Below are positions 2,020 through 28,456 of a stretch of 28,866 nt of DNA, in pieces. Positions within the stretch are counted from its first letter, which is position 1, and every line of letters begins with the position of its first letter. The stretch is taken from positions 1 to 28,866 of the forward strand of contig PJAB01000362.1 in the NCBI GenBank assembly GCA_002887195.1. Reading direction: 5' to 3'. The notes under the pieces were generated by a model. That model was given only the letters and a program-made list of their open reading frames with translations, ran no database searches and was not told the DNA's origin. Source of the stretch: Chrysochromulina parva. Its lineage: Eukaryota > Haptophyta > Prymnesiales > Chrysochromulinaceae. The translations under genes were made by a program, and so were the position numbers.

Positions 2020-2182
2020 GAACGCGTGCGGATGGCCGGGCGGGCGGGCCGATCGCCGGGCAGCCGGGACACAAAAAATCTACTCTCCCGTCGCATTCTG
2101 TGTCGCCAGCCCGCCTCGAAAATAGTCAACCAGCACGTTCACATTCACACGGACCGCCAACAAAGTGGAGGAGCGAGGCACG
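2020..2182. promoter_or_regulatory. Divergent promoter region, proline-rich/armadillo gene and eIF3g
   Basis: Only 163 bp separate the ATG of the minus-strand gene (2019) from the ATG of eIF3g (2183), so both 5' UTRs and core promoters must share this segment. No TATA box or known motif stands out; the call rests on gene orientation. Confidence 0.5.
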
Positions 2183-3211
2183 ATGCCGTCTTGGGGAGAG
2201 GACAAAAACGAGCCGCTGCCCGACCTACCCCAAAGCCACGAGACGGAACCCGACATCAACGGCATCAAAACGATCACCACCTACCGCAAGAACGAACTCG
2301 GCCAGACGATCAAGGTCACGCAAAAAGTCAGGGTCTCGAAGCACACGGTCAAGGTCTCGAAGCCTGTGCTCGCGCGCCGACAGTGGGCCAAGTTTGGTGC
2401 GTGCCAGGGCAAGCCCAGGGGCTACCACGGCGCAGGCTACCAGGATGCGGCGACGACCACCATCGATATCTCGGAGCAGGTTCTTGAGATGAACCCCAAG
2501 GAGCAGGTCAAGGAGGAGAAGAATGAGTCGGCGCAGCGTGCGTTCGAGAAGATGAACGCGATCGCGTCCGAAGCGTGGCGTCCGAAGCAGCGCGACACGA
2601 GCCTCGCGGCGGCGGCTGAGTGGGCCGAGGCCAACGGCCTTGCCAGCGCCACGGGTGACGACAAGCGCATCCCCGACGGCGCGGGATTGGGCTCGCTCGC
2701 AGCGCTCGCAAGCCGCCAGGGGGCCGGCGGTTACGTGCCCCCGAGCCTGCGCAACGCGGACGGGTCGCGCAACGCGGCGATGGCGGAGCGCGATGACAGC
2801 TGCACCGTGCGCGTCTCCAACCTATCCGAGGACGTCAAAGACTCGGACCTGCGAGAGCTCTTCCGCCGTTTTGGTGCGATTCAGCGCATCTATCTTGCCA
2901 AGGATCGCGAGACGCATCAGTCTCGTGGGTTCGCCTTCATCAACTTCTTCTCGCGCGAGGACGGGCAGCGCGCCATCGACAAGCTCGACGGCCACGGCTA
3001 CGACCATCTCATCCTCTCCGTGAGCTGGGCAAACCCGAGCGCCGGCGGCGATGGGCCCAAAGCGGCACCGCCCACAGGCGCCGCCTTCGGTCCTGCCCTC
3101 GGCAGCGGTGGGCCTGGCGGGGGAGGCGCAAGCCGCTTCGAGGGCCGCGGCAGCATTGCCGACCGCTACGACAAGCAGGTCTTTGACTCGGGGCTGGACC
3201 GCTTCCGGTGA
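2183..3211 (+). CDS. EIF3G: Eukaryotic translation initiation factor 3 subunit G
   Basis: This 342-residue protein begins at ATG 2183 (MPSWGEDK); an in-frame GTG upstream at 2165 is not a likely start. The N-terminal half has the eIF3g domain: TYRKNELGQTIKVTQKVRV, then a basic ARRQWAKFG segment. Residues about 207-285 are a canonical RRM, with RNP2-like VRVSNL and RNP1 RGFAFINF (from residue 248). A Gly-rich linker and a short C-terminal tail ending in DRFR follow. eIF3g is an RNA-binding subunit of eIF3 that works in 43S scanning and reinitiation in the cytoplasm. The central zinc-knuckle cysteines seen in many homologues are not present: only one Cys occurs in the ACQGKPRGYHG segment. TGTAA at 3320-3324 lies 109 nt past the stop. 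Confidence 0.93.
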   Translation: MPSWGEDKNEPLPDLPQSHETEPDINGIKTITTYRKNELGQTIKVTQKVRVSKHTVKVSKPVLARRQWAKFGACQGKPRGYHGAGYQDAATTTIDISEQVLEMNPKEQVKEEKNESAQRAFEKMNAIASEAWRPKQRDTSLAAAAEWAEANGLASATGDDKRIPDGAGLGSLAALASRQGAGGYVPPSLRNADGSRNAAMAERDDSCTVRVSNLSEDVKDSDLRELFRRFGAIQRIYLAKDRETHQSRGFAFINFFSREDGQRAIDKLDGHGYDHLILSVSWANPSAGGDGPKAAPPTGAAFGPALGSGGPGGGGASRFEGRGSIADRYDKQVFDSGLDRFR

Positions 3212-3484: not shown

Positions 3485-4117
3485 TCATTGGGCCGACTTC
3501 GGAGCCGCTTTCGGGTCGGTGCTTCGGTGCGCCAGGCGGGCCTGCTCTCGACGCTCGGCCTCATCCTCCTTGATCTGCATCAGAATTTTCTGCCGCTCAT
3601 CATTTGCTCCCGCCAGCTTCTGTTCACGCACCTTGGCGAGCCGATCGATCTTGATCTGCTCGAGGTCGCGGTAGTTTTGGAGCACCACGGCCGACTCCGC
3701 GAGCGTACGTATGAGCACCGGCGTCTCATCGGCCACCCAGTGCTCCTCGAACTCGACAACCTTTGTACGGAAGCCAAGGGCGAGAAGCACGTCCTGCCCG
3801 CCGGGGCAGCGCAGGATGGCCTGCCGTATCTTTGGATTATTGCTGCGGAACTGGCGGTATTTCGGTTCGTCCGGGTTGGCGATGATATTGTTGGTCAGCT
3901 TGAGCAGCAGCTCGATTGCTGCCATCGCAGTCGCTGAGTCCTGTTGCGACACCTTTGTGTCAAGAGCGCGTGCGACGAGCTTGCGATTCGCGGACACAGT
4001 CTCGTCCTCGGCGGTTGGCAGTGTGATCTTCGGTGCCGCATACGGCACCGCGGCCGACATCGAGGGAGCGCTGCTGGCCGCTGCGGGCCCGTCGGTCGCC
4101 GCTGATTCAGGCTCCAT
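3485..4117 (-). CDS. PUB-domain protein with C-terminal coiled coil (UBXN6/UBXD-like without UBX)
   Basis: The first ATG in the frame is at 4117 (MEPESAATDG), giving 210 residues; longer readings would need a TTG start. Residues about 62-128 match a PUB domain: AAIELLLKLTNNIIANPDEP, KYRQFRSNNPKI, and DVLLALGF. PUB domains bind the C-terminal tail of the AAA ATPase p97/Cdc48 and occur in PNGase, HOIP and UBXN6. Residues about 150-210 form a charged helix with ILMQIKEDEAERRE, resembling the segment that precedes UBX domains in UBXN1/UBXN6-type proteins, but the protein stops there and no UBX fold follows. A role as a small p97 adaptor in protein quality control is inferred. It is divergent from the glutaredoxin gene, with 163 bp between ATGs. 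Confidence 0.82.
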   Translation of the reverse strand: MEPESAATDGPAAASSAPSMSAAVPYAAPKITLPTAEDETVSANRKLVARALDTKVSQQDSATAMAAIELLLKLTNNIIANPDEPKYRQFRSNNPKIRQAILRCPGGQDVLLALGFRTKVVEFEEHWVADETPVLIRTLAESAVVLQNYRDLEQIKIDRLAKVREQKLAGANDERQKILMQIKEDEAERREQARLAHRSTDPKAAPKSAQ

Positions 4118-4280
4118 GGGAGAGAGAAGCGCCGCGCAGCTTCGACACCAGCGCGGTCTCTTCACATGAAGTCCATGAAGTTTGCGACTAGGGGCTCTGA
4201 CCAAGTTTTTCTCTCAAACTATGCACGAAGTGCCCCTCAACAAGTGTCCCTCTCACTTTCAGGAAATCTTCATCGGGATC
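4118..4280. promoter_or_regulatory. Divergent promoter region, PUB-domain gene and monothiol glutaredoxin
   Basis: The 163 bp between two outward-facing ATGs must contain both 5' UTRs and core promoters. No specific motif is claimed. The spacing is the same as that between the proline-rich gene and eIF3g. Confidence 0.45.
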
Positions 4281-4842
4281 ATGCTCGCGCGCTCGCTGCG
4301 CCTCGCACCGCGGCTCGCTGCCACCGCGGTCGCTCGCCGTCCGTCGGTTCTGCCGCGGCTTCTGCCGCACGGCGTGCGCGCGCTCTCGGACTCGGGCATA
4401 CACGACGACTTCAAGCCAAAGAAACGCGCCTACGCCACCGAGGGTGGCGACGTGCACGCGCAGATCAGCAAGGACATTGCGGAGAACAAGGTGGTTGTGT
4501 ACATGAAGGGCGTGCCCAACGCACCGCAGTGCGGCTTCAGCAATGCCATCGTGCAGGTGATGAAGGCGGAAGGCGTCGAATTCAAGGGCATCAATGTGCT
4601 CGCAGATCCCGACCTTCGGGAGGGCATCAAAACCTTCACCAGCTGGCCGACCATCCCGCAGGTGCGTGCATTCCGCGTATGGGCGCGGCGGCCTGATCGC
4701 ATCTGAGGCCGCAACGTGCACTGTGCTCACGTCGTCACAGGTATTCGTCAAGGGTGAGTTCATCGGCGGCTGCGATACGACGATGGAGATGTACAAGTCG
4801 GGCGAGTTGAGCACCATGCTCAAGGCGGCTGGTGCGAAGTAA
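4281..4842 (+). CDS. GRX5: Mitochondrial monothiol (CGFS) glutaredoxin, Grx5 type, two exons
   Basis: Exon 1 is 4281-4661 and exon 2 is 4741-4842, joined at a phase-0 GT-AG intron, giving 160 residues. The join restores [18 protein letters not shown], an invariant stretch of monothiol glutaredoxins; reading through instead gives a premature stop near 4706. Residues 1-36 are Arg/Ala/Leu-rich without acidic residues, a good mitochondrial transit peptide. The active site is CGFS at residues 84-87, with the preceding K66-type lysine context [10 protein letters not shown], followed by the TSWPTIPQ and GGCD glutathione-binding motifs. Grx5 carries [2Fe-2S] clusters in mitochondrial iron-sulfur assembly. 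TGTAA at 4990-4994 lies 148 nt after the stop. Confidence 0.95.
4662..4740 (+). other. Spliceosomal intron of the Grx5 gene (79 bp, GT-AG)
   Basis: The donor is CAG|GTGCGT and the acceptor is TCACAG|GTATTC. Removal keeps frame and rebuilds the conserved TIPQVFVKG motif, while retention introduces a stop. It is the only intron I can place with confidence in the window. Confidence 0.9.
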
Positions 4843-5451: not shown

Positions 5452-5730
5452 GCAAGTCTGAACGCGTTGCGGCCGGGAAGCGGGGAAGAAATCTCCGGGA
5501 ACTGCGCTGCCTTAACTTAACTGCCCTCGCACGCCCCTCCACGAATGTTTTAGGTGCGCGTCGCGTGATCTCGCTAGTCGATTCTCCAAACTTTCTTCCC
5601 CCAAGTTCACCTTTTTTTAGACTTCGCCTGGCCTCGGCCACTGTCGTCTACACTCTTCCGCGCGGAGAGCTCAACCCCGCTCGCCCACGCGCCCACGCGG
5701 CAGTGCGTGGCAGCAGCATCGAAGTGTTGC
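5452..5730. promoter_or_regulatory. Divergent promoter region, DUF2256 gene and NLR-like gene
   Basis: The 279 bp between the two ATGs are more AT-rich around 5550-5620 than the flanking genes (tracts such as CTTTTTTTAG). No specific element can be named. An in-frame GTG at 5707 precedes the chosen NLR ATG, and an upstream 5' exon cannot be excluded. Confidence 0.4.
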
Positions 5731-8700
5731 ATGCCAACGGCTGCAACATCGAAGCCGGACGCTCCAAATGCAAAAGCGCGGCGTCCTGCGCTTGCCGGCG
5801 CCAAGAAGCCGACCCAGCTGACTGGTCCTTCTCCACCAGGAGCTAGCTCGCAGCGGCTGTCCAGCGCACAAAACAGCGCAAGGGCAGCCACGGCACCTCC
5901 CAATGCCTCACCGGCGGCCAGTGGCGGAAACCCGTTCGAGTTCGGCGCGAGGCGCGGTGTATCGCCTCGAACAGCTCTGCCACGACTGTCTGCAGCCGGG
6001 ATGCCGAGCCAACCTAAGACAAAGAGTGCCGTCGAACGACGGCCTGGGCGCACCAGCAAGCCAAGCTCCGGCAAGGACGATGCAGCTGCTGCGCAAGCTA
6101 CAGCAGAAGGCAGCACGGGCACTGCGACCGGGCACGGTGCATCTTCAGCATCGTCTGTCGACGAAACGGCCCACTTAGAAGCACGTGAGCGCATGGCTCG
6201 CCGCCGGTCTCTCGTGGTCGATCAGCGTGGCTGGAGCCCAGCGCTCCAGGATTACGCATCACCTAAACAGCTCGAAGCGTGGCTCATCGCACATGGCGTC
6301 AACACAGCTGGCTGGACCGGCAGTAGGCTAGCCTCGAGCGGTGGCGCGGCCAGCAGCACCCCAGAGATGAGTACGGCGACGCGCACTGTGGAAGAGCTCT
6401 TCAGTGAGCTTCAGAACGGTGAGAGTGAACTCAACGTGCAAGGGTCTAAGGGCGTACTGCTTCAGCAACGCATCGTCGAGGTGCGCCTGGCGCAAGCAGC
6501 CGCGTCAGAGAGCCCACGGGTAATCACGACGGGGCACGCGGCAGCAGCTGCCGCCGCCCAAGTCAAGGGACCACAGAGTGCTCGTACCGAAGGGTTGGGC
6601 GTGCTCGTGCCGAGGATGCAAACCGGAGGTGGCAATCTCGTCGAGGTCATGCAAATCATGCCCAACGGCCGGCAGCGCGCTCACCGCGCCCCACTCCAAG
6701 TCACCCTGCTCGGTGGCGAGCGCCCTCTCGACGGCGCCGAGCGATGTCTCACGACCTATGTTGTGTCGGCCATCCCCATGGAAGCTGTGAGCATCGACAA
6801 GTCCTCCCTGGCCGAGTCGGAGCGTACCTTCTATTCCTCAAGTTACCCCGGTTTGCTCACGCGCGAGCGTCGGTACACCGTGCGTGCGCGGGTGCAAGCT
6901 TCCGCGTTGGGGACACAGCCCGGTTTCACGACCGACGAGGTGAGCGCCGATGGCGCGAACGTGCTCTATCGGCACGTATGGGCGTGGCAGCCGCGCGTCG
7001 AAGCTTCGAGCGAGGTGGGCCTGTCTGATACGAACTTCACGCTATTGGCCTGGCTACTCGAAGGGTGCTCGCGCGTCGTCGTAAGGCTGATACGCGGTGG
7101 GCGACGAGAGAGCTCCCTCCTGCTCTCGTGCCACACGTACGATGAGAAAGGACAGCTCGAAGAGCCGCTGGTGTGCCGCATCGATGATGCCGCAGCACTC
7201 AAGCACGAGAGCCAACGTCTCGACGACATGTGCAAGCTTACCGGCGGTGCGGGAATTACCAAGGTTTCGCGAGGGCCTTATTACCTCAATGGTTGCGGGG
7301 CGATGCTGATCGACATGGTAAATGCGTGCTGGGTGCTGCCCGAGTTTTACGACCAGCAGGAAGGCGTCTTACTCACTACGCTCAAGTCGCGCCTCGGCGC
7401 GACGATCCTGCAAACGTCCCTGCAAGAAAAGGAAATCACCCTCGACACAGCCGCTGCCAACGCCCTTAGCAAGGGTGCTGCCACGCCCCGCGGAGGCGAT
7501 CCAACGCCACGCGTCACCAAGGGCAAAGACAAGGAGAGCAAAGACAAGGAGGGTAGAGACAAGGAGAGCAAAGAAAAGAATGCGAAACCGCGCCGCCGAG
7601 ATCCCAATGGTGCCGATGCACTGGCCGCTAGCGCAAAGGACGACGTGCCAACGGACCTGTGGTGTGCGGACGTGTTGAAGGACCTGTTCTCGGCGGGATC
7701 GCCGCTCTCGGTGCTCTCGCTCGAAAGTGCAGAGCGGGAGCACCTGTTTTCGTGCTCCATGGGCGGCCGCATCGAGCGTTTCATCCGTGACCTCGGCATC
7801 CTGATCAGTACTGTCTTCCTGCCGCCGCCGCCTACAAACCCGTATGGCATCTCCGACTACCCCGGGTACGATCCGCCAGCGCCGCTCAAATCCGTGGTAG
7901 CGATGCTCAGCAAGCGACTTGACGGCGTCATTGTGCGAGATCACGTGAAGCTTTTCAAACATTCCTTCGTCCACGTCCCGCGGGCTGCAGAGTTCTACAA
8001 GGTGCCTGTCGACTCCAAGAGCGGCCAGTCTCTCGCTGACCTGTGTAGCTTGCTCGTTGACCTTCTCAAGCCCATCTCGCGGCCCGCGGGTTTCGTCAAC
8101 CACAAGCCGCTCGTCGCGCAACAGCATGGCTCGCTTACCCTAGAGAATATTCTCATCGACCTGCGCAGCACGGTGTGGCTCGTCGACGTGGCTGCCAGCG
8201 CGAAAACGATGCCAACCGAGCCCCTCAGCGACGCGGCCAACATGCTCGCGACCCTACTCTTCCGTCACTTTCCGCTGAGCTTCACGATCGATGACATCAA
8301 GCTGATCAATCTCGATGAGCCCAACCTTCTCATAGACGTCATGGAGGTGCCCATGCCGATCGCCGCGCGACTTCATGAAGCTGCGATGAACCACACGACC
8401 AAAGACGAGGTGTACAAATCGCTCCACAAATCGCTCCAGACGTGCACGCCTCAGGCGCACAGCGAGGTGAGCGCGGCGCTCAAGCTTCTCGTGCACGTCG
8501 CGCGCGACGAGGCGGAAGCGCGGTCGCGCGTCAGTGAGGCGTGCGCTGTCTTCGATGCCATGCTCGGATGGACGGGTGAGCCGCCAGAGCTGTGGCAGAT
8601 CGCCACGCGACAGGCGAAGAACCACTGGTCCGCAGTGTCGAAACTCATCTTCCAATTGTGCACGACAATAATTCGGGTCGCCTATGAGCTGCTCCTGAAG

Positions 8701-11700
8701 TGCACGCAGAAAGTTGCGGAGAAGGAGAACGGTAGTTCTCGGAGAGAAGGAGACGACGAGGAGGCAGAGCCTTCGGAGGGGGCAGGTCCGCCCACGCCTG
8801 CAGCAAATGCAGACCTGCACATTTCGAATCTGCTGATGCCGTTGCTCTTGTGGTCACTCAAGGCTCTGCACAACCCCGAGCTCTCTCGCTGGCACAAAGC
8901 GCTCGCATGGCATGCGACGCTCAGCCTGGCGAATACTCTGCAAACAGCCATCCCCCGGGCACCCTCGCAGCCACCGCGCCCGCGCGTCGAACCACGACAA
9001 ATGCTGCGCCTTACCAGGGGACAGCTGGTTCAGAAGCTTGCCGCGAGTAAGGCCGAGCGACTGCTCGGCGGCGAGGGCGAGCTTCAGCTTGGCATTGTCG
9101 GTCTCGACTCTGATGCGAGCCAGAACTTCGACGCGATTTCGCAGGTGGTGCTGCCATGGAGGGCCCCGGGCGTGACACAGCAGGGCAATTTGGATTTCAA
9201 TCAGATCATCAAGGAGCCGTTCAATGCATTGAAAGAGGTGCCGCTGCTCCTCAGCCTGCCAAATCAGATGGATTTCCGAGACACGTTTGCCAGCGAAATC
9301 GAAGGCGCCGCAGAGAAACTGAAACGCAAGCTCGACAACTTCCACGCGCTTCTCAAGGAGACGACTGACGAGGCTCTGAAGCTCATCGATCAAGCTTCTG
9401 CCAAGTGGGTGTACGCGCGACAAGCGGCTAAAGACAAAATGGAGAAGACGGACGCTGAGATTGCAAGCGCTGAGCTTCGACTTGCGCAGGCAACGAAGGA
9501 CAAGGAGCGCGCTGAGAATCGTCAGGCTGGCGATCGCCAGGACGGCATCGACAAGGCTAATAAGGAGCTCAAGAACGCAACACGCAATCTTGAACACATC
9601 TCGGGAGCACGAAGCCAGGAAATCAAGCAGATCTCAGAGGCGAACGAGATCCTTGTGACCGAGCTCAAGCGCGCAGTCACCTTCGACCCTGTACAGGTAG
9701 AAGAGAGCCTCGGACGCGCGGCGCCGCTGTGGTCATTCACAAAGCATCGGCAGTTGAATGCCTGCGGGCTTCGTGTCTATGCCAAAGAACAGCAGCTCTT
9801 CGTGCTCTGCTCGGGCAAGTGGCGCGACGTCGTGGTGCACGAGTCGTATGAGGGCTTGGCGCGCCATGTGCTGCGCGATAGCATGCAGAAGATGTACGAG
9901 GCGGATCTTTCGCCCTGGAACCACGCGCCGTGCCAGCTGGAAGAAGCCGACTATCGCGCACTCTCACGTCGCTACTTGCAGACGCTCCGCGCAAAGCACG
10001 CCTCGATTTTCGATGCCCTCTCTGGCAAGCGCCTGGACGTGTTTGACCAGACCGTGCCGATCGAGGTGGCTGCCGCCAATGGCGCGCCACCCGGTAACGA
10101 TGACTCGCTCGGGGACATCAAGGATGTGGCGGGTCTGTACGCTTTCCTGCAGAGGTCGTACGAGCAACGTGTGCGCCATTCGATGGCCAACAGCAAAGCA
10201 TGCATCCTGCTCACCGGCCCTCCGGCGGCCGGTAAGACGTGCCTCATGTCGCAACTGATCATGCACTCTCTCGGGCGGGAGCAGAAGGCGAAGCCAGCAC
10301 GTACAGAACCAGACTCAGCTCGTTCAAAGGATGCAATCAAAGGCTCAGGCGTCGCCTCAGCCGACCCGAGCCGCACGTACACTCTCTTTCCCGTGCTCAT
10401 CAAGGTGCAAGAGCTGCAACGCCTGCTCCTCATCAAGGATAACAGCCACATCTTTGCGGGCGCGTGGAACTGGATTGACGCGTACCTCAGGTGCAAGCAC
10501 GGGGCCACAGACGAGACGTACCTTATGATGCGGCAGACGCTCATGGCGCGTCGTGCAATGATCCTTCTGGACGGAATCGATGAGGGTGGCAAGATGCGCG
10601 AACAGATCGAAAGGCACGTCACTGAGGTGCTCGCGCCGCAAGGCCACGTGATGCTCGTTACCTCCCGGCCAGCGGGTCTGAACGAGAGCGCCTTTGATAT
10701 TTATTTCCATCGATTGCAGATGAAGCCTCTGCGTGAGGACCAGCAGCAGACGGTGATCAAGCAACGTGTCGACAAGGAGCACATCGGCATGCTCTGGACG
10801 TACGTCCGCGAAAAGGTCCCGCTAGATACGGAGACTGGCCAACGTATCACAGGCAACCCTCTGATGCTCTCGATGATCATCTCGATCTTCACCATCCGAC
10901 TAGGCGCTAAAGGCGAGGGACTGCCCGCGATGCCCGAGACCATCTCGGAGTTGTACGCGACGGCCGCTACCACGATGATCGAGCGTGTCAACCGGCGAGA
11001 GCGTGGCGCCGCCGTGGCAGCGGCTGCAGGGCTCGAGGAGACGCGCCTTGTAGAGGCAACCTTTTTTCAGGCGCATGCGTCATTGCGGCGCGTCATGGAG
11101 GAAGACCATCTCGCAGCGGCGGCACTCCAACTCTCGGTGCCGGAAAAGTTAGCCAACGCATCAAAGGTGCCAATCTTCTCGAACAAGGACCGCGCACGCG
11201 AAGGCCATGTAGTCGAAGTCGTCGGCCTTGGCATGAGCCGGCGCGGCGTGTGCATCCGTGACAATGGCTCTCAGACTCCATTCAAGGTTCGCTTCTTCGA
11301 CGACGGCAAGATCACAGATTGGCTGAAGCAAAAGAATGTCATGACATCCAAGCTATCCGAGGACGAGTTCGAAGCCGAGTATGGCGATGAAGCACGGAAG
11401 CGCGCCATCGCGGACGCGGTGACCTTCATTCCGGAGTCGATGCGCGAAGCGATGTCCAATGTGCGCAGTCGAGTGATTCAAGACCGGTTGCCGCTCGTGA
11501 GCCTGTTGCAGGGCGATCCGCTGCAGATGCAGTCGTCTCATCTTTCGTTCCAGGAGTTCTACGCAGCCCAGTCCGTCTGCAAGGGCTCACGACTACCTGG
11601 CGCGCCACCGTGGCAATGGTCTGCCTGGTGGTCCAACTCACTGAAGCTCGGCATTGAAATGGGCGATGTGTTCCGAGAGGGGCTGCTCGAAGCTTGTGGA

Positions 11701-14100
11701 GCAGGTGGCAAGAAGTCGCTCGATCTGCGCCAAAAGATTGGCGGTGATCGGCCCACTGCGTTCAAGGCCATCGCCCAGCTGATGCTAGTTGCCACATCGA
11801 TCGACTTATCCGAGAACCGCATCGACATGACGGAATTCGCGATCATCGAGCCTTCCATACGTGAGTCACCCACGCTCACTGAGCTCAACATAGCAAAGAA
11901 CCGCTTAGGCCCCAAAGGTGGCTTTGTGATTGCTAAGGCCGTGCGAGCTTCGACGTCCATAGCAAAGCTCAGTCTCGATGGTGCCTCTCTGCCCATTCGA
12001 CTCCTGAAGATCGAAGCTTATAAGGCCGACAAGGAGAAAGAAAGGCTCGAAAAAGAGAAGGCGGAGAAAGAGAAGGCGGAGAACGCCACTAAGCCCGAGA
12101 AGCCCGCGAAGCCCGAGAAGCCCGCGAAGCCCGAGAAGCCCGAGAAGCCCGAGAAGCGCGACGAGGCAGAGAAAGCTGATGAGGCTTCGTCGCGAAACGG
12201 CGAAGAGAAACACCAGAAGCACGGCAAGAACAACAAAGCTGAAGGCGGCTTAATGGTCGACCTGAGCAGAAAGGCACTCGGCTCGGCTTCAGGAATCGTG
12301 CTCTCCATGCTGTTGCCAGACGCCCTCCACGTGACAGAGCTCGACACGCGGTATTCTGGCATGGAGGGCGAGGGTGCTCGGCTGCTGGCCGAGGCTGTAA
12401 TTAGGAGCTCATCTCTCAATAAGTTCTCGCGGATCCCACTCAGAGAGCTTCGCGCCAACGAGGCACCTACGCTCTCGTTGGTAGACACTGGACTCGGCAC
12501 GACGGAAGGCTGGGTGCTGTCCGCAATAATTGGTCTGAGCTCGTCGCTCACGGAGCTCGACGTACGGTCCAACCTCATTGGGGCCGTCGGAGCTGAACAG
12601 CTTGCCAAGGCCATTCTCGCATCGGCATCCATTCGGCGGCTCTCCGAGATTCCGCTAGCCGAGCTTCGTGAGAATCAGATCTCTGAACTCGACCTGTCCA
12701 ACAAGTCGCTTGGACCGACAGAGGGCCGTGTGTTGGCTACAATTCTGATGCTTTGCACCTCACTTGAAGAGATCAACCTTCTCGGAAATTGCTTCGACGA
12801 CGAAGCGACCTCAATGCTGCTCGGGGTCAAAGAGGAAGCGGCAAGAGCCGCCAAATTGGCCGAAGGATTGAGCAGAGAGGAAGCGGAACGCGAGCGTGAG
12901 AGGGTGAAGGCCGTCACCGATGCGATCAACGTGAAATCAGCGGCAAAGGAACGGCGAAAAGGGCTCAGCGGCGGCGATGAGGCCAGCGGCGAAGGTTCGA
13001 TACCAGTGGACACTCATAAGTCTGCGGCAGTGCCGGCGGAGGATGGGAATTTCCATGCGCCCCAAAGAAAGACTGTCAAGCTCATCATTCCCGACTATGG
13101 GTCAGACCCGGAGGAGGAGGAGGAAGAGGGAGGAAGGAAGAGGAGGGGGTCGCTCGAAGACGAGGAGGAGGAAGAGGGAGGAGCATCCAAGGCGTCGGAC
13201 CACTGGGAACGTGGTATCTTGCGGGGTGAAGATCGCCCGAAGGTGGCCTCGGATAGCACCGAAAAGGTGCTGCTGCGGCTCAAGACGCTCTGCGGGCTCA
13301 AGCACGGCCAACCACACATAACGTTCAAGCATCTGAGTGCCTCGTGTGCACGGCTGCTTGCAGCCGACATCGTCACCTCTTCCTCGGTGACGCAGCTCAA
13401 CCTGCAGGAAAACACCCTCGGCTTCGAGGGCGGCCGCGCTATCTCGCTCGGTATTCGAGCCAACACGTCGCTTGTCGAAGTCAATGTGGAGGGCTTCGCA
13501 CTGCCCGTTTTGCAGCTCAAAGGCCTCGAGCCGGTGCCAAATAATAAGCTCGACCTCTCGTCCAAAAAGCTAGGGCAAGCGTCGGCGGTGCTGATTGCCT
13601 CCGTAATCGGCGCCGAGGCCACCGCGTTCAACGCACTCCGAGTTCTCAACCTGCGCAACAACGAGATCGACGACATTGGCTTATCGGCCCTCTCGGGAGC
13701 AGTCGCCGACGGCGCGATGGTGTGGCTCGAGCGGCTCTTCCTCAACAAGAACCATATTGGAAACGTCGGCCTCGCGGCCTTTGCAGAGGCGATCAAGGCG
13801 AAGCGCATGAACATGCTCAAGGAGCTCGGCATTTCCCTGAATCGCATCGGGGACCCCGGGCTGCACGCGCTCATCACCGTGATCAAGGCGGGCATGCTCC
13901 CGTGCCTCACAGCCATCGAGGTCTTCCCCAATCCGGCCAGCTCCGAGGCCCAAGAGGGGCTCGCGAACTTTGTGAACAAGAAGAAGCGGATGCCGAAGCT
14001 TTCGCCGCGCAAGCTCGGAAGTGGCGATCCAAGTTACCTCAGCCACCGCTCGGGCACGGAAGGCGCTCTGAGCCACCGTTCGGGCACCTCAGCAGGTTAG
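5731..14100 (+). CDS. Giant NLR-like protein: degenerate APH/TCAD9-type kinase-like module, coiled coil, NACHT, LRRs
   Basis: This single 2789-residue frame starts at the first ATG (5731). Residues 1-220 are disordered. About 415-840 form an APH/choline-kinase-like module: VCRID with Arg483 where the lysine is expected, the YLNGCGAMLID and CWVLPEF segments, then HGSLTLENIL (799-808) and VWLVDVA with Asp819. HGS replaces HGD, so catalysis is doubtful. It resembles what has been called TCAD9 in NTPase conflict proteins. About 1190-1320 is a coiled coil. The NACHT has Walker A GPPAAGKT (1496-1503), Walker B ILLDGIDE (1611-1618), the sensor TSRPAG and GNPLMLSMI. An SH3-like insert lies at about 1823-1870, and HLSFQEFYAAQ follows near 1940. 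LRR blocks lie at about 2021-2075, 2172-2370 and 2523-2743, separated by Lys/Pro/Glu and acidic linkers. Such proteins sense a ligand with LRRs and oligomerise through NACHT; an immune or signalling role is inferred. Confidence 0.9.
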   Translation: MPTAATSKPDAPNAKARRPALAGAKKPTQLTGPSPPGASSQRLSSAQNSARAATAPPNASPAASGGNPFEFGARRGVSPRTALPRLSAAGMPSQPKTKSAVERRPGRTSKPSSGKDDAAAAQATAEGSTGTATGHGASSASSVDETAHLEARERMARRRSLVVDQRGWSPALQDYASPKQLEAWLIAHGVNTAGWTGSRLASSGGAASSTPEMSTATRTVEELFSELQNGESELNVQGSKGVLLQQRIVEVRLAQAAASESPRVITTGHAAAAAAAQVKGPQSARTEGLGVLVPRMQTGGGNLVEVMQIMPNGRQRAHRAPLQVTLLGGERPLDGAERCLTTYVVSAIPMEAVSIDKSSLAESERTFYSSSYPGLLTRERRYTVRARVQASALGTQPGFTTDEVSADGANVLYRHVWAWQPRVEASSEVGLSDTNFTLLAWLLEGCSRVVVRLIRGGRRESSLLLSCHTYDEKGQLEEPLVCRIDDAAALKHESQRLDDMCKLTGGAGITKVSRGPYYLNGCGAMLIDMVNACWVLPEFYDQQEGVLLTTLKSRLGATILQTSLQEKEITLDTAAANALSKGAATPRGGDPTPRVTKGKDKESKDKEGRDKESKEKNAKPRRRDPNGADALAASAKDDVPTDLWCADVLKDLFSAGSPLSVLSLESAEREHLFSCSMGGRIERFIRDLGILISTVFLPPPPTNPYGISDYPGYDPPAPLKSVVAMLSKRLDGVIVRDHVKLFKHSFVHVPRAAEFYKVPVDSKSGQSLADLCSLLVDLLKPISRPAGFVNHKPLVAQQHGSLTLENILIDLRSTVWLVDVAASAKTMPTEPLSDAANMLATLLFRHFPLSFTIDDIKLINLDEPNLLIDVMEVPMPIAARLHEAAMNHTTKDEVYKSLHKSLQTCTPQAHSEVSAALKLLVHVARDEAEARSRVSEACAVFDAMLGWTGEPPELWQIATRQAKNHWSAVSKLIFQLCTTIIRVAYELLLKCTQKVAEKENGSSRREGDDEEAEPSEGAGPPTPAANADLHISNLLMPLLLWSLKALHNPELSRWHKALAWHATLSLANTLQTAIPRAPSQPPRPRVEPRQMLRLTRGQLVQKLAASKAERLLGGEGELQLGIVGLDSDASQNFDAISQVVLPWRAPGVTQQGNLDFNQIIKEPFNALKEVPLLLSLPNQMDFRDTFASEIEGAAEKLKRKLDNFHALLKETTDEALKLIDQASAKWVYARQAAKDKMEKTDAEIASAELRLAQATKDKERAENRQAGDRQDGIDKANKELKNATRNLEHISGARSQEIKQISEANEILVTELKRAVTFDPVQVEESLGRAAPLWSFTKHRQLNACGLRVYAKEQQLFVLCSGKWRDVVVHESYEGLARHVLRDSMQKMYEADLSPWNHAPCQLEEADYRALSRRYLQTLRAKHASIFDALSGKRLDVFDQTVPIEVAAANGAPPGNDDSLGDIKDVAGLYAFLQRSYEQRVRHSMANSKACILLTGPPAAGKTCLMSQLIMHSLGREQKAKPARTEPDSARSKDAIKGSGVASADPSRTYTLFPVLIKVQELQRLLLIKDNSHIFAGAWNWIDAYLRCKHGATDETYLMMRQTLMARRAMILLDGIDEGGKMREQIERHVTEVLAPQGHVMLVTSRPAGLNESAFDIYFHRLQMKPLREDQQQTVIKQRVDKEHIGMLWTYVREKVPLDTETGQRITGNPLMLSMIISIFTIRLGAKGEGLPAMPETISELYATAATTMIERVNRRERGAAVAAAAGLEETRLVEATFFQAHASLRRVMEEDHLAAAALQLSVPEKLANASKVPIFSNKDRAREGHVVEVVGLGMSRRGVCIRDNGSQTPFKVRFFDDGKITDWLKQKNVMTSKLSEDEFEAEYGDEARKRAIADAVTFIPESMREAMSNVRSRVIQDRLPLVSLLQGDPLQMQSSHLSFQEFYAAQSVCKGSRLPGAPPWQWSAWWSNSLKLGIEMGDVFREGLLEACGAGGKKSLDLRQKIGGDRPTAFKAIAQLMLVATSIDLSENRIDMTEFAIIEPSIRESPTLTELNIAKNRLGPKGGFVIAKAVRASTSIAKLSLDGASLPIRLLKIEAYKADKEKERLEKEKAEKEKAENATKPEKPAKPEKPAKPEKPEKPEKRDEAEKADEASSRNGEEKHQKHGKNNKAEGGLMVDLSRKALGSASGIVLSMLLPDALHVTELDTRYSGMEGEGARLLAEAVIRSSSLNKFSRIPLRELRANEAPTLSLVDTGLGTTEGWVLSAIIGLSSSLTELDVRSNLIGAVGAEQLAKAILASASIRRLSEIPLAELRENQISELDLSNKSLGPTEGRVLATILMLCTSLEEINLLGNCFDDEATSMLLGVKEEAARAAKLAEGLSREEAERERERVKAVTDAINVKSAAKERRKGLSGGDEASGEGSIPVDTHKSAAVPAEDGNFHAPQRKTVKLIIPDYGSDPEEEEEEGGRKRRGSLEDEEEEEGGASKASDHWERGILRGEDRPKVASDSTEKVLLRLKTLCGLKHGQPHITFKHLSASCARLLAADIVTSSSVTQLNLQENTLGFEGGRAISLGIRANTSLVEVNVEGFALPVLQLKGLEPVPNNKLDLSSKKLGQASAVLIASVIGAEATAFNALRVLNLRNNEIDDIGLSALSGAVADGAMVWLERLFLNKNHIGNVGLAAFAEAIKAKRMNMLKELGISLNRIGDPGLHALITVIKAGMLPCLTAIEVFPNPASSEAQEGLANFVNKKKRMPKLSPRKLGSGDPSYLSHRSGTEGALSHRSGTSAG
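12085..12160 (+). repeat. In-frame AAGCCCGAG/AAGCCCGCG repeat coding for a Lys-Pro-Glu/Ala linker
   Basis: About eight units of a 9-bp repeat encode KPE/KPA triplets in the linker after the first LRR block of the NLR-like protein. It probably expanded by slippage and forms a flexible, charged spacer. Confidence 0.85.
13102..13190 (+). repeat. Purine-rich GAG/GGA tract coding for two acidic runs
   Basis: Two GAGGAG-type runs code for EEEEEEGG, then for EDEEEEEGG, separated by a short basic stretch (GRKRRGS). They lie in the linker before the last LRR block of the NLR-like protein. The all-purine strand is a typical slippage-prone tract. Confidence 0.8.
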
Positions 14101-14314: not shown

Positions 14315-17300
14315 TTATGAAACACGCCGAGCGCAAGCGCGCTGGAGTTCTGCGCTGCTCCAGCGTACGGAAAAATCCGCTTCCGCATCTGACAATATAA
14401 CCGGGGGTACGGAGAAAGCGTTCTTGGAGTCGAGCTGCACAGAGCGCTCAAACAGTGTGCGACCTTTGACGATCAGATCCGTAGGACTCGCAGCCGCCCC
14501 GTTTCGTGCCAATGTGCACCCGCGCAACGTAAGCCGTGCTTGCGGTGGTACTCCGCTGATCAGAACCCCGCTTTGCACATTGTCGAGCGCTGTGCAGTCG
14601 AGCAAGAGACCACTACCGAAGTAGATAGCCACGCCGTGGCGGTTGTGGTTGAACTTACACGAATCCAGCAATGCCACTGCTGCGGTCTTCAGCTCTCCAG
14701 ACTTCTCCGAAGCCTGCAGCACGATCGCCTCCGCATCATGGTTCTCCAGCGTGCATCGTCGCATGATCAGCGAGCCACACTCAGCAAGCACGGCGGATTT
14801 ATTCGGATGCTTGCCGCAGCGACGCAACACGCAGTCGTACAGCTCGAGTCTAACGCCCCCAGCATACAAGACAACCGCCTGCTGGGCACATTTCAGCAAG
14901 TGGCAGCTGCGCAGCACTGCGCGTGCGCCACTTCGAACCTCCACAGCGCATTTTTGGAGCTTGGAGAAAGTGCATTCATCACACTCCAGTGAGGCATTGT
15001 CGACGGCGAGTGCAGCAGCACTGGATTCGTGGCGCACGAACACACGCTTGAGCGACAAATAGCTTCCTGCATCGGTGACCGCAAAGACGGGCGAGTCGGG
15101 CGTGCGTGCTTGACAGTCGATCACACGTACGGCAGCGCCCTGTCTACACAGAACACAACTGCCAGTGTCTGTGTGCGGTGCGCCAGTTGGTTGCACCAGT
15201 TGCAAACCCTCCACGCAAAAATCAGCCTCAGTACCCGTCGCAGTGATTAGCACATAGCCCGTCAAACCCGATGCCTTTGGGCCTCCACTTGAGCGGAACC
15301 GGTGGACAGCTTGAGCGTCGGTTGACATCCGTATTTCGGCACCTCGCCTCCCGGATTGCGTACTTATCCAACCCAGCAGTTGAACCCGAGAGGCTTCAAT
15401 GTGCAGCTGCTCCGTGTAAACGCCCGGAAGCAGGATTAGTGTCACGCCGGGGCTGTGTGGCAGTGCCGTTAGCTGCTGCAGCGCATCTGCAATGCAAGCA
15501 AATGCAGCGCCACCATCCGCGCACACCACATGCATGTTGTCTTTGTAGGCTACGCGCTCCCATAGCTGCGGATAAGAGCGCACGTCAGGCAGCGACTTAG
15601 CGCCGCTCTGAGCCGATTTGAGTGTCAGTGCCTCCTCAAGCAGTCGCCTGATGGCAACGTCGTCAGGCAGCAACGTCGCGGCGGCACTTGCCGCCGCCGT
15701 CGCAGAAGCTCCGTCTCGCCTTCCCATGTGCGCCTGCGCAACCCGGTATTGAGCCTTTGCCCACCCAGGTCGGGTGATCAACGCCGCCCTCGCGTCATCA
15801 GCGGCGGCGGTGAACCAACGCAGTCGACGACGAGCTGCGGCTCGATTGCAGAGTAGCTCCGCATTCTCTGGTTCCAGATTCAAAGCTTTCGAGTAGAATT
15901 CATCCGCCATGGAGAAGTCGCATGTGGTAAACGCTTCGTTACCGCGCGTCCGTAGTACGTCGGCTCTTTCCATCCCATCTGCCGGTAGCCCAGTCAGTAC
16001 CTCTTCCATCCGCTCCTTTGGTACAAAGCCATCGGCTGCGCGCGCCTCATGCATGCGCATGATAAGAAGTGCCTCATCCCGAGCATCACAGCTTTCTCCT
16101 TCAAACATTGGAAGCCTGTTTGCCTCCGCAGCCTGTGCTGCGCGCACTGTAGCAAAAAAGTCTGCATCAAAAAAGTCTGCATCAAGCACCAAGTCTGCAT
16201 CAAGCACCTGCCGCCCGTACCGACCACCGTTGGCCTTTAGAAATGCGAGTTTGGCCTGTAGCATTGCGATTTCAAAGAGCGCCTGGCTCACTTTTCGACC
16301 CTCGGGGGACGCCCCTGCTAAAAAGCGGCGGAATGACGAGATGGCTAAGGCTGCTTCGGTTGCACGATTGGTCTCACTCGTAGTACCTAGAAGTCTGTCC
16401 CGTGCAATCGCCATCCAATAGTGGAACATGGGCTCCTCTGGGCAAATCTGCAGGCAGCGTTCAGAGCCCTCCAAAAGACCCCGCCAGTCGCCATTGTTGC
16501 CGCGCAAATTTGCGCGCATGCAAAGCGCACCGCGAGCATCGGACGGCGAATGATGCGCGACGAGCGTATTCAGAACCTCCTCTGCGTCCGGCAGCCTTCC
16601 AAGACGTCGAAGTGCCCATGCACGCAACAACATGGCATCTCCATGGCAGGGATCGCGCGACAGCACCTCAGCAGCGCAGGTGATGTACGGACTAGTATCT
16701 GACTGTCCATACTGGCCGCCGCCGCTGAATGGGTCGCCGTCGGAGACTGAGTTGCGCATCGAGGAGGCGAAGCACCCAGTAGCGCGAACACAGTCTCCTT
16801 GCACCAACGCCTGCTCGCCCATGAGCCACAAAAAGCGGCTTTCAAGCATGCGCGCCGCCACCATCGAACCTTTTTCCTTCAAGTCTTGCAACTGTGAAAT
16901 CTCGCTCGACGCCGGCACGCTCGCTCGCATCACACTTGCTCGTAGCACATCAATTGCCACTCCTGCTTGAATGTAGGAGGCCAGTGGTGTGGCGAGCATC
17001 AGCCGAAGCGAGTTTTCTGAGTCCAGAACCAAGTCCTCGATCGCAAATCCAGATTCGACGCCTGGATCCAACTGCGAGCCATCCACGCCATCCTCTGTGC
17101 CGTCCTCCGTCCTCTCACCTTCCGCGAAGATGGAGAAAGTGGGATCAACCGCTCGCTGCTGTGCAGAAGTGCAGAACAGCCAGCCAGGTACCAACCCCGC
17201 AATTGTATTCTGAGCTGCCCACGGGTGGCAACATCCACGAGTCAGCCACACTCGCACCTCTGCGGCTGTGCGGAAGCAGCCGCCGGGCAGCAGTGCGCGA

Positions 17301-18385
17301 GACACAGCAAAGACGTGAAGTGTCGCTTGTGCGCGTGCAGCCAAGCTGGATCGCGTCAGCTTATCCAGCCGCGTGGCCTCGCACAGCACGCCACCATCGC
17401 CGCCGCCGTCTGCGACAGCCTGCAGCACAGACACGCACAGCTGCATCGCGCCATCGCCAACTGTCGCGCTGTTGGGCTCGCTTCCCCGGCAGTGCAGCGC
17501 CAGTGTCTCGAGTGCGTGGCCGGGTATCTTGCGACTGTCCTTGGCCGCTTGCTCAGCCCAGAGCTTGAGGGCACACGCGGTGCTAGAAATCACAGGATCG
17601 AGCGCCACGCGCTCATCCACAGGCGGACGTGCTCCGTATTCCACTGTGTCAGCGCACACGATGTCGCAGTCGACGCCGAAGAGATTTGCGTGGATGGCCA
17701 GCTTACCGAGTTTCACATGCGCTGGATTGGCAGATGGATGCGCCTTGAGCAGCGCTTCAAGCGCCTGCACTTGCTCTAGTGTTGCAGGAGCTGCGCTGTG
17801 CACCAGCAGATCCACGTCACTCTTCCTCACATACGTCTTCTTCTTCACCGACCCAGCAATGGTTACAAGGACGCCCGGCCCAAATACCGAGAGAGCTGCT
17901 CCACGCACGGCAGATAATACCATGTCGAGATATAGGCGGAGATCAATATTCAGCGCGCGCTCAGATCTAACGATGTGCGCAAAGGCGAGCGCCTCGCTCG
18001 AGCGAACATAGGTGGAAAGTCGGACGGCAGGCTGGATGGCAGGCCGGTTGAGTGGAATCGTGCAACCAGAGCCCGATACGTCCGAGATTGCAGCGGTTGC
18101 TTTCATAGCGGCCACTGTTGAAACATTCGCCGCGACCACGGCGGCTGGATTTGGTGGGTTTTGTGCTGGATTTGGTGCCGCTCTCACCAGACAGGCGTCG
18201 ATCGTCTCGGACCCTGGTTCGGCAACGTTCACGTCTTCGGGTACTGCCTCAGAGCCTGGCTCGACAGCGAGAGGTGATGACGATCCCGAAGGGCCCTCCA
18301 GGTCCCGGATGAATGGCTCGGCTTGTGCGCGAGGCTTGCTCGCGGTGCTGCCGCCCCATCGGATGCGCACCATCCATTTTTTCAT
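14315..18385 (-). CDS. OAS/CD-NTase-like nucleotidyltransferase fused to TPR and right-handed beta-helix domains
   Basis: The first ATG is at 18385, giving 1356 residues; a longer reading needs a TTG start. After a disordered N-terminus, about 130-300 is a polymerase-beta-type nucleotidyltransferase: AGSVKKKTYVRKSDVDLLV (G178, S179, D190, D192), the third acidic strand FGVDCDIVC (D239 or D241), and IPGHALETLALHC, which resembles the helix after the catalytic domain in OAS-like enzymes. All three metal-binding acidic positions appear intact. About 584-690 are TPR-like helices, and 810-915 are clear TPRs (RTRGNEAF, FYSKALNLEP). About 950-1335 is a parallel beta-helix, opening with LILLPGVYTEQLHI and repeating short strands (LRSCHLLKC, LYDCVLRRC, MRRCTLEN). 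It could make a nucleotide signal or tail an RNA; the product is unknown. Confidence 0.85.
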   Translation of the reverse strand: MKKWMVRIRWGGSTASKPRAQAEPFIRDLEGPSGSSSPLAVEPGSEAVPEDVNVAEPGSETIDACLVRAAPNPAQNPPNPAAVVAANVSTVAAMKATAAISDVSGSGCTIPLNRPAIQPAVRLSTYVRSSEALAFAHIVRSERALNIDLRLYLDMVLSAVRGAALSVFGPGVLVTIAGSVKKKTYVRKSDVDLLVHSAAPATLEQVQALEALLKAHPSANPAHVKLGKLAIHANLFGVDCDIVCADTVEYGARPPVDERVALDPVISSTACALKLWAEQAAKDSRKIPGHALETLALHCRGSEPNSATVGDGAMQLCVSVLQAVADGGGDGGVLCEATRLDKLTRSSLAARAQATLHVFAVSRALLPGGCFRTAAEVRVWLTRGCCHPWAAQNTIAGLVPGWLFCTSAQQRAVDPTFSIFAEGERTEDGTEDGVDGSQLDPGVESGFAIEDLVLDSENSLRLMLATPLASYIQAGVAIDVLRASVMRASVPASSEISQLQDLKEKGSMVAARMLESRFLWLMGEQALVQGDCVRATGCFASSMRNSVSDGDPFSGGGQYGQSDTSPYITCAAEVLSRDPCHGDAMLLRAWALRRLGRLPDAEEVLNTLVAHHSPSDARGALCMRANLRGNNGDWRGLLEGSERCLQICPEEPMFHYWMAIARDRLLGTTSETNRATEAALAISSFRRFLAGASPEGRKVSQALFEIAMLQAKLAFLKANGGRYGRQVLDADLVLDADFFDADFFATVRAAQAAEANRLPMFEGESCDARDEALLIMRMHEARAADGFVPKERMEEVLTGLPADGMERADVLRTRGNEAFTTCDFSMADEFYSKALNLEPENAELLCNRAAARRRLRWFTAAADDARAALITRPGWAKAQYRVAQAHMGRRDGASATAAASAAATLLPDDVAIRRLLEEALTLKSAQSGAKSLPDVRSYPQLWERVAYKDNMHVVCADGGAAFACIADALQQLTALPHSPGVTLILLPGVYTEQLHIEASRVQLLGWISTQSGRRGAEIRMSTDAQAVHRFRSSGGPKASGLTGYVLITATGTEADFCVEGLQLVQPTGAPHTDTGSCVLCRQGAAVRVIDCQARTPDSPVFAVTDAGSYLSLKRVFVRHESSAAALAVDNASLECDECTFSKLQKCAVEVRSGARAVLRSCHLLKCAQQAVVLYAGGVRLELYDCVLRRCGKHPNKSAVLAECGSLIMRRCTLENHDAEAIVLQASEKSGELKTAAVALLDSCKFNHNRHGVAIYFGSGLLLDCTALDNVQSGVLISGVPPQARLTLRGCTLARNGAAASPTDLIVKGRTLFERSVQLDSKNAFSVPPVILSDAEADFSVRWSSAELQRACARRVS
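16154..16208 (-). repeat. Compound 15/18-bp tandem repeat within the TPR gene
   Basis: On the plus strand AAAAAAGTCTGCATC occurs twice (16154-16168, 16169-16183), then AAGTCTGCATCAAGCACC occurs twice (16173-16190, 16191-16208), overlapping the first pair. In the protein it gives the run LDADLVLDADFFDADFF between TPR blocks. The repeats keep frame, so they look like recent slippage in a tolerant linker. Confidence 0.85.
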
Positions 18386-18656
18386 CGACACTTGTGTTTC
18401 GTCACGCGGATCAGGGAGCTTACCTGCCCTGTCAAGAGCGCTCGTCTTGAGCGGGAAGTATCGATTCAATTAAGCGCCCAAAAGGACGCTGGCCATCCCC
18501 GCGGGGTCCGACCAAAGCCGATCGGCACGATTGTGGCCGACGCCTCGATGAGCATTTGTGAGGGCTGAGGCTCCAAGCCCGAAACGCACGTACTTTACAT
18601 CACCTCCGTACGACCGTACCGATAACGCACATTCGACGCTCGGTGGCCGGGTCATC
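18386..18656. promoter_or_regulatory. Intergenic region: 3' end of the IQ/EF-hand/WW gene and promoter of the nucleotidyltransferase gene
   Basis: Both flanking genes are on the minus strand, so this 271-bp segment should hold one 3' UTR and one promoter. TTACA at 18595-18599 reads TGTAA on the minus strand, 58 nt past the upstream stop. A good splice donor (CAG|GTAAGC on the minus strand near 18421) could mark a 5' UTR intron of the nucleotidyltransferase gene, but no exon can be proven. Confidence 0.4.
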
Positions 18657-27766: not shown

Positions 27767-28210
27767 ATGGCAATTGCGATCGGCTCGGCCGCCCCAACTT
27801 TTGAGTGCCAAAGCCACACTGGCGCAACTTTGAAGCTCGCTGACTATGCTGGCAAGAAGTTGTTGATCTGGTTCTACCCGCGCGCATGCACCGGAGGATG
27901 AACTGCGGAAGGGAACGCTTTCCAGGCAGCGCTCCCGGAGTTTGAGGCCAAGAATGTGGCCATCGTCGGCTGCTCCAACGACGATGTGACGCTAAACAAA
28001 AAGTTCGCTGAAGAGCAGGGCTTCACGTATCCGCTCCTCTGCGACACGACGCTCGCCGTGGCCGTTGCTTATGGTGCTGCTGCGGACTCTTCAGCAGGTA
28101 AGGCTGCTCGCATCGCCGCACTGATCGATGAGACGGGCATGCTGATCAAATACTGGAATCCAGCTGGCAAGGGTGAGTTTCCCGGCCAGGTTCTCTCGGA
28201 GCTTGCATAG
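27767..28210 (+). CDS. PrxQ/BCP-type peroxiredoxin, predicted selenoprotein (in-frame UGA at the catalytic position)
   Basis: From ATG 27767 to TAG 28208-28210 the frame gives 147 residues if TGA 27899-27901 is read as selenocysteine (residue 45). Upstream is IGSAAPTFE, then LADYAGKKLLIWFYPRACTGG; downstream is TAEGNAFQAALPEFE, VAIVGCSNDDV, NKKFAEEQGFTYPLLCD. This is the PrxQ/BCP pattern FYP-x-x-x-T-x-G-C-T-x-E with the UGA exactly at the peroxidatic cysteine. The usual resolving Cys five residues later is absent (Asn50); Cys41, Cys69 or Cys92 or an external thiol may resolve. It would reduce hydroperoxides using thioredoxin- or glutathione-type donors. An in-frame stop at 27710-27712 limits upstream extension, so no targeting peptide is visible. 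Both sides of the UGA are intact, which argues against a pseudogene. Confidence 0.87.
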
Positions 28211-28364: not shown

Positions 28365-28456
28365 CTAGCCCGTCCAGCAGAATGATGCCGCCTTTCACCA
28401 ACTGCTTGCACTGGGCAGTGGAGGGCAGCGGACCGCGGAGGCAACCTGGACGCTAG
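28365..28456 (+). promoter_or_regulatory. SECIS element candidate in the 3' UTR of the peroxiredoxin
   Basis: This starts 155 nt after the stop. Helix I pairs CTAGC (28365-28369) and GTCCAG (28372-28377) with CTGGAC (28446-28451) and GCTAG (28452-28456). The non-Watson-Crick quartet is UGAU (28383-28386) opposite GGAC (28430-28433), with tandem G.A pairs. Helix II pairs GCCGC (28387-28391) with GCAGC (28425-28429, one C.A mismatch) and CTTTCAC (28392-28398) with GTGGAGG (28418-28424). The unpaired AA is at 28400-28401, and CTGC/GCAG (28402-28405, 28415-28418) can form a mini-stem sharing one base, as in form 2 SECIS. The folding was done by eye. Confidence 0.75.

Follow-up and report, generated by a model that had tools for sequence, protein, structure and literature searches.

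A PrxQ/BCP-like peroxiredoxin gene of the haptophyte Chrysochromulina parva with an in-frame TGA at the peroxidatic position

The locus and the peroxiredoxin frame

The window, i.e. the whole stretch of 28,866 nucleotides analysed here (contig PJAB01000362.1, Chrysochromulina parva), carries several open frames upstream of the gene of interest. An eIF3g gene at 2165–3211 has 218 homologues. Among the 120 listed, the nearest named ones belong to Haptolina brevifila (66%), Prymnesium sp. (63%), 'Scypho...' (taxon 418940; 62%), Emiliania huxleyi (56%) and Pavlovales sp. (53%), a pattern that fits a prymnesiophyte haptophyte. A PUB-domain protein on the reverse strand (3485–4204) overlaps head to head with a forward-strand glutaredoxin frame (4182–4706) containing a CGFS motif, presumably of the monothiol type. 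Positions 5707–14100 of the forward strand form an open frame of 2797 residues that ends in leucine-rich repeats at its C-terminal side and matches NPHP3_N below the cut-off, features reminiscent of NACHT/LRR receptors, and the reverse-strand frame at 14315–18469 (1384 residues) combines TPR and right-handed beta-helix domains; its N-terminal part resembles what we take to be a nucleotidyltransferase, a motif absent from the Pfam output.

The peroxiredoxin frame occupies 27767–28210 of the forward strand, from an ATG at 27767 to a TAG at 28208–28210, and encodes 147 residues when the TGA at 27899–27901 is read as selenocysteine (Sec45, motif TGGUT). This TGA is the sole internal stop of an otherwise open frame, and the coordinates given for frame and TGA in the initial annotation, which had proposed selenocysteine (Sec) in place of the catalytic Cys, proved exact. 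Its claim that homology continues on both sides of the TGA without a frame change also held, as a single AhpC-TSA domain (Pfam; residues 5–126, E 9.6e-28) runs across residue 45; the Redoxin match of the read-through protein reached 1.8e-21. Both the homologue alignment and solved BCP/PrxQ relatives place residue 45 opposite the Cys of TPGCT. Peroxiredoxins carry their peroxidatic Cys in the first turn of a long helix, and in an AlphaFold2 model built from a 22-row alignment (pLDDT 94.9) residue 45 falls in the first turn of helix 43–61; the TGA lies on the peroxidatic column, as had been proposed.

Family placement and predicted catalysis

The best NCBIfam match was the BCP model PRK09437, at 76.7 bits against an equivalog cut-off of 140, and we therefore use the label PrxQ/BCP-like. 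Among solved structures, those closest in sequence are BCP/PrxQ proteins, and the best fold matches of the predicted model are likewise BCP and PrxQ, with AhpE slightly lower. PrxQ/BCP proteins combine an AhpC-TSA domain with a peroxiredoxin fold whose long helix begins at the peroxidatic residue, and the window protein shows both, the fold in its predicted model. An identity with PrxU, likewise a peroxiredoxin family with Sec members, was dropped: model NF040737, which we take to bear the name of the Sec peroxiredoxin of E. acidaminophilum, represents another subfamily and gave 40.9 bits against a curated cut-off of 270.

Fold and peroxidatic position are shared with the Cys-type PrxQ of Xanthomonas (PDB 5iiz, 3gkk), from which the window protein differs in carrying Sec for Cys and in lacking a resolving Cys both at +5 and at the place of Xanthomonas C84, where it has Asn50 and Ala81, respectively. 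Members of PrxQ/BCP without a resolving Cys exist. The initial annotation had called the motif CTGGU without a Cys at +5 unusual for the family; the residue at +5 is indeed Asn50, but the motif itself has to be seen otherwise, for C41 is not conserved, being Cys in two of 12 rows with the FYP motif (the window protein and a near-identical piece) and Ser, Gly or Asp in the remainder, whereas TGGUT is a conserved and published motif.

Because neither usual PrxQ position for a resolving Cys holds Cys, an outside thiol reductant is proposed. The ribosome would insert Sec at the UGA by means of a SECIS element in the 3' UTR, the selenolate would attack hydroperoxides and become a selenenic acid, and an outside thiol system, either thioredoxin or glutathione with glutaredoxin, would reduce the latter. 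The predicted enzyme is a Sec peroxidase that depends on an external thiol for its reduction. Alternatively, C92 (in LLCD) or C69 might act as an internal resolver; among the 17 alignment rows covering both positions, Cys occurs in 12 and 11, respectively.

Recoding signals, homologues and rival readings

The 3' flank contains a candidate eukaryotic SECIS at 28382–28433 of the forward strand, comprising ATGA (28382–28385), 14 nt, AA (28400–28401) and GGAC (28430–28433). The presumed helix I is formed by GTCCAG (28372–28377) and CTGGAC (28446–28451), both on the same strand, which pair in the minimum free energy (MFE) and centroid folds. The candidate lies 171 nt past the stop, and that of a paralogue in the same genome (L002) 62 nt past its own. 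Their scores of 30.0 and 32.5 were each matched by none of 300 dinucleotide shuffles of the respective flank, the scoring script having been written after both UTR candidates were spotted by eye and its range widened once to admit L002. Over the whole window and both strands, 28382–28433 is the top-scoring site, the next two reaching 27.75.

Within 900 bases, 13 of 14 TGA loci reached a score of at least 20; of the 11 AhpC-TSA or GPx loci lacking a TGA none did, their highest score being 18. Scanning the full flank with any NTGA core brought one of these 11 controls to 20 (L021, 21.5, GTGA core); with the core restricted to ATGA...[GT]GA the counts were again 13 of 14 and none of 11. The single TGA locus below 20 (L005) shows, in a looser scan, an ATGA site that lies 105 nt past the stop but lacks AA. 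As a background, the window was divided into 64 tiles of 900 bases, of which 11 reached at least 20 with the NTGA core and three, the UTR tile included, with the ATGA...[GT]GA core; two tiles reached 25, and the UTR tile was the one reaching 30.

Other results count against the candidate. Rfam SECIS_1 had no match in the 3' flank of the window gene or in the whole genome, and the fold energy was no better than that of shuffles (z -0.87; +0.29 on a longer stretch). The MFE fold of the window candidate lacks the expected SECIS core, UGCC pairing instead with GGCA past GGAC, and its 3' internal loop ahead of helix I measures 12 nt; in the MFE fold of L002, helix II follows immediately after ATGA. 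The candidates suggest a SECIS layout in the C. parva genome that the Rfam model misses.

The genome searched (45 Mb, 2199 contigs) contains a tRNA-Sec (70.7 bits) and SepSecS (418.9 bits); eEFSec was not identified among the best three of 21 matches to TIGR00475 (selB), which proved to be EF-Tu, IF-2 and GTPBP1. One TGA interrupts four of four Rdx, eight of 11 GPx and two of 13 AhpC-TSA matches, the last two being the window gene and L002. The twelve further one-TGA matches (L004–L011 and L013–L016; four Rdx, eight GPx-like) have in 11 cases a downstream SECIS-like ATGA-N(10-15)-AA...GA that Rfam SECIS_1 does not detect. C. parva thereby adds a haptophyte with many selenoprotein-type genes.

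A protein search with the window peroxiredoxin returned 47 homologues. Sixteen are N-terminal pieces that stop exactly at TGG, one codon ahead of the TGA. The split homologues thus all break at a single shared codon, and stops or frameshifts elsewhere, which would mark decaying genes, did not appear. Ten are C-terminal halves beginning past the TGA, with varying starts, and together with P0006, P0046 and P0047 they make up the 13 that lack the FYP motif. The remaining 18 read through, with TPGC in 14 (P0007 and P0022–P0034), SPVC in three and TGGW in one (P0002). The Cys or Sec that had been expected in the TGA column of relatives is thus found, as Cys in the 14 TPGC homologues and in six of 18 bacterial loci, and as a TGA at the same codon of L002, which is 49% identical to the window protein. 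Viral contigs yielded no relative.

A conserved gene broken by one in-frame stop formally resembles a fresh nonsense mutation, and a pseudogene or sequencing error in an ordinary Cys peroxiredoxin would look much like the frame described here. This account is nevertheless very unlikely: the paralogue shares the TGA, 16 of the 47 homologues halt at the same place, a TGA also occupies this position in 11 of 18 bacterial loci, P0003 matches the C-terminal half with 96% identity (across 57% of the query), and the frame has no second stop or frameshift. Translation termination at a true stop, with a second small protein restarting near 27956, would fit the halves that gene callers list (P0003, P0004, P0014–P0020). 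Such splitting had been anticipated in the initial annotation and does occur, but each half would lack part of one compact peroxiredoxin domain, the C-terminal pieces do not agree on a start and a SECIS candidate lies downstream of the gene, which makes two separate products extremely improbable.

Removal of the TGA by splicing, or its decoding as another amino acid under a reassigned code, finds a point in its favour in P0002, an environmental full-length protein, 62% identical, which shows Trp at the Sec column exactly as a TGA-to-Trp translation would give; perhaps its source annotation rendered TGA as Trp. Frame and profile, however, continue without a gap at the TGA, the genome encodes tRNA-Sec and the other TGA matches found in it belong to the Sec-using families GPx and Rdx (SelT/SelW), so we give this possibility very little weight. 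The best explanation remains Sec insertion: the TGA stands at the peroxidatic column and recurs in the paralogue and in many environmental relatives, the 3' flank holds a SECIS candidate, and the genome encodes tRNA-Sec and SepSecS. A PrxQ/BCP-like peroxiredoxin with Sec at 27899–27901 is therefore strongly supported, homologue columns, paralogue, SECIS candidate and Sec machinery all agreeing with the replacement first proposed, and we consider it very probable that this is a nuclear haptophyte gene in which Sec is the peroxidatic residue. Reading the codon as Sec repairs a gene model that loses its active site when gene callers split it.

Published relatives, bacterial counterparts and origin

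As described in excerpts of a 2020 survey, 'The algal selenoproteomes', a Sec form of AhpC_a with the motif TGGUT occurs in Aureococcus anophagefferens, Emiliania huxleyi and Symbiodinium minutum, and E. huxleyi has 96 selenoprotein genes (PMC7539508). The AhpC-TSA domain and TGGUT that characterize this form in those excerpts are both found in the window protein. Since the Sec form is already published there, the window gene is a further member of a described Sec-peroxiredoxin family, differing in coming from another genome, with two copies; the likeness is one of domain and motif description. Our literature search on the motif TGGUT gave that survey as its sole relevant source, and one joining selenocysteine, 'peroxiredoxin Q' and SECIS found none. 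Peroxiredoxin selenoproteins are also noted, in the portion consulted, for Ostreococcus and Thalassiosira (PMC2375036), and a bacterial selenoprotein peroxiredoxin of COG1225 (Bcp) with the motif TxxU is given in extracts of PMC9312934 (same entry, PMC13188914). The consulted extract of PMC8318568 names the Latescibacter- phylum just as a reconstructed genome and makes no mention of a peroxiredoxin.

To the bacterial Sec-Bcp proteins the window protein is related by domain and Sec column. The 18 bacterial loci came from a scan in which the Cys relative P0007 served as query; besides those with TGA or Cys they include one, L052, that lacks the motif. One of the TGA loci, L037 from Latescibacteria, reads FYPRASTGGUTAEG and is 52% identical to the window protein, the upper end of the identity shown by Latescibacterota forms that share TGGUT. 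In its phylum, 53 of 64 genomes searched gave matches. Thirty loci of the Latescibacterota phylum were read, with TGA in 21 (one each from 21 genomes; 16 TGGU, five TPGU), Cys in eight and one not recovered; the 21 are those among the loci read, a few weaker TGA matches lying outside. PrxQ/BCP-like bacterial genes with TGA in this column comprise L037 and L058–L073, from the phylum of genome G001, as well as L036, L038, L043–L048, L050, L074–L076, L078 and L079. The TGGUT form is seen in 16 Latescibacterota-phylum genomes and TPGUT in other bacterial TGA genes, L047 being a TPGU example. SelB scored above cut-off in three of five Sec-peroxiredoxin genomes examined, the Latescibacteria one included.

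Bacteria insert Sec by means of a hairpin located within the coding sequence, immediately downstream of the UGA, in contrast to the window gene, with its SECIS candidate in the 3' flank. In the window gene, L002 and L037 alike, a hairpin directly after the UGA did not surpass shuffles. The TGGUT Sec forms of Latescibacterota hint at inter-domain transfer and raise the question of whether a Sec gene might pass between domains despite differing insertion signals. It is conceivable, though on balance doubtful, that the algal TGGUT gene came, Sec codon included, from a bacterium of the Latescibacterota type, the in-frame signal being replaced by a 3' UTR SECIS while Sec was kept throughout.

Trees were built with P0002, P0007, P0022, P0023, P0028 and P0034 from the 47 homologues, omitting L051 (frame broken), L052, L058 (same gene as L037) and L083 (frame not recovered); eukaryotic Cys PrxQ is absent from both. 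In the full-alignment tree (52 rows), the three eukaryotic rows fall inside a TGG set of 20 (100/95), beside L037 (91/73). With 14 motif columns masked, the bacterial TGGU rows group separately (89/88), and a topology that keeps the eukaryotic rows among them is neither recovered nor rejected (p-AU 0.237); this tree carries a long-branch warning, above all for L002. The grouping of the algae with bacterial TGGU forms thus rests on the active-site motif columns. A single clade of all Sec rows, a group named after the first tree was seen, was rejected (p-AU 0.018), so Sec and Cys have probably changed more than once.
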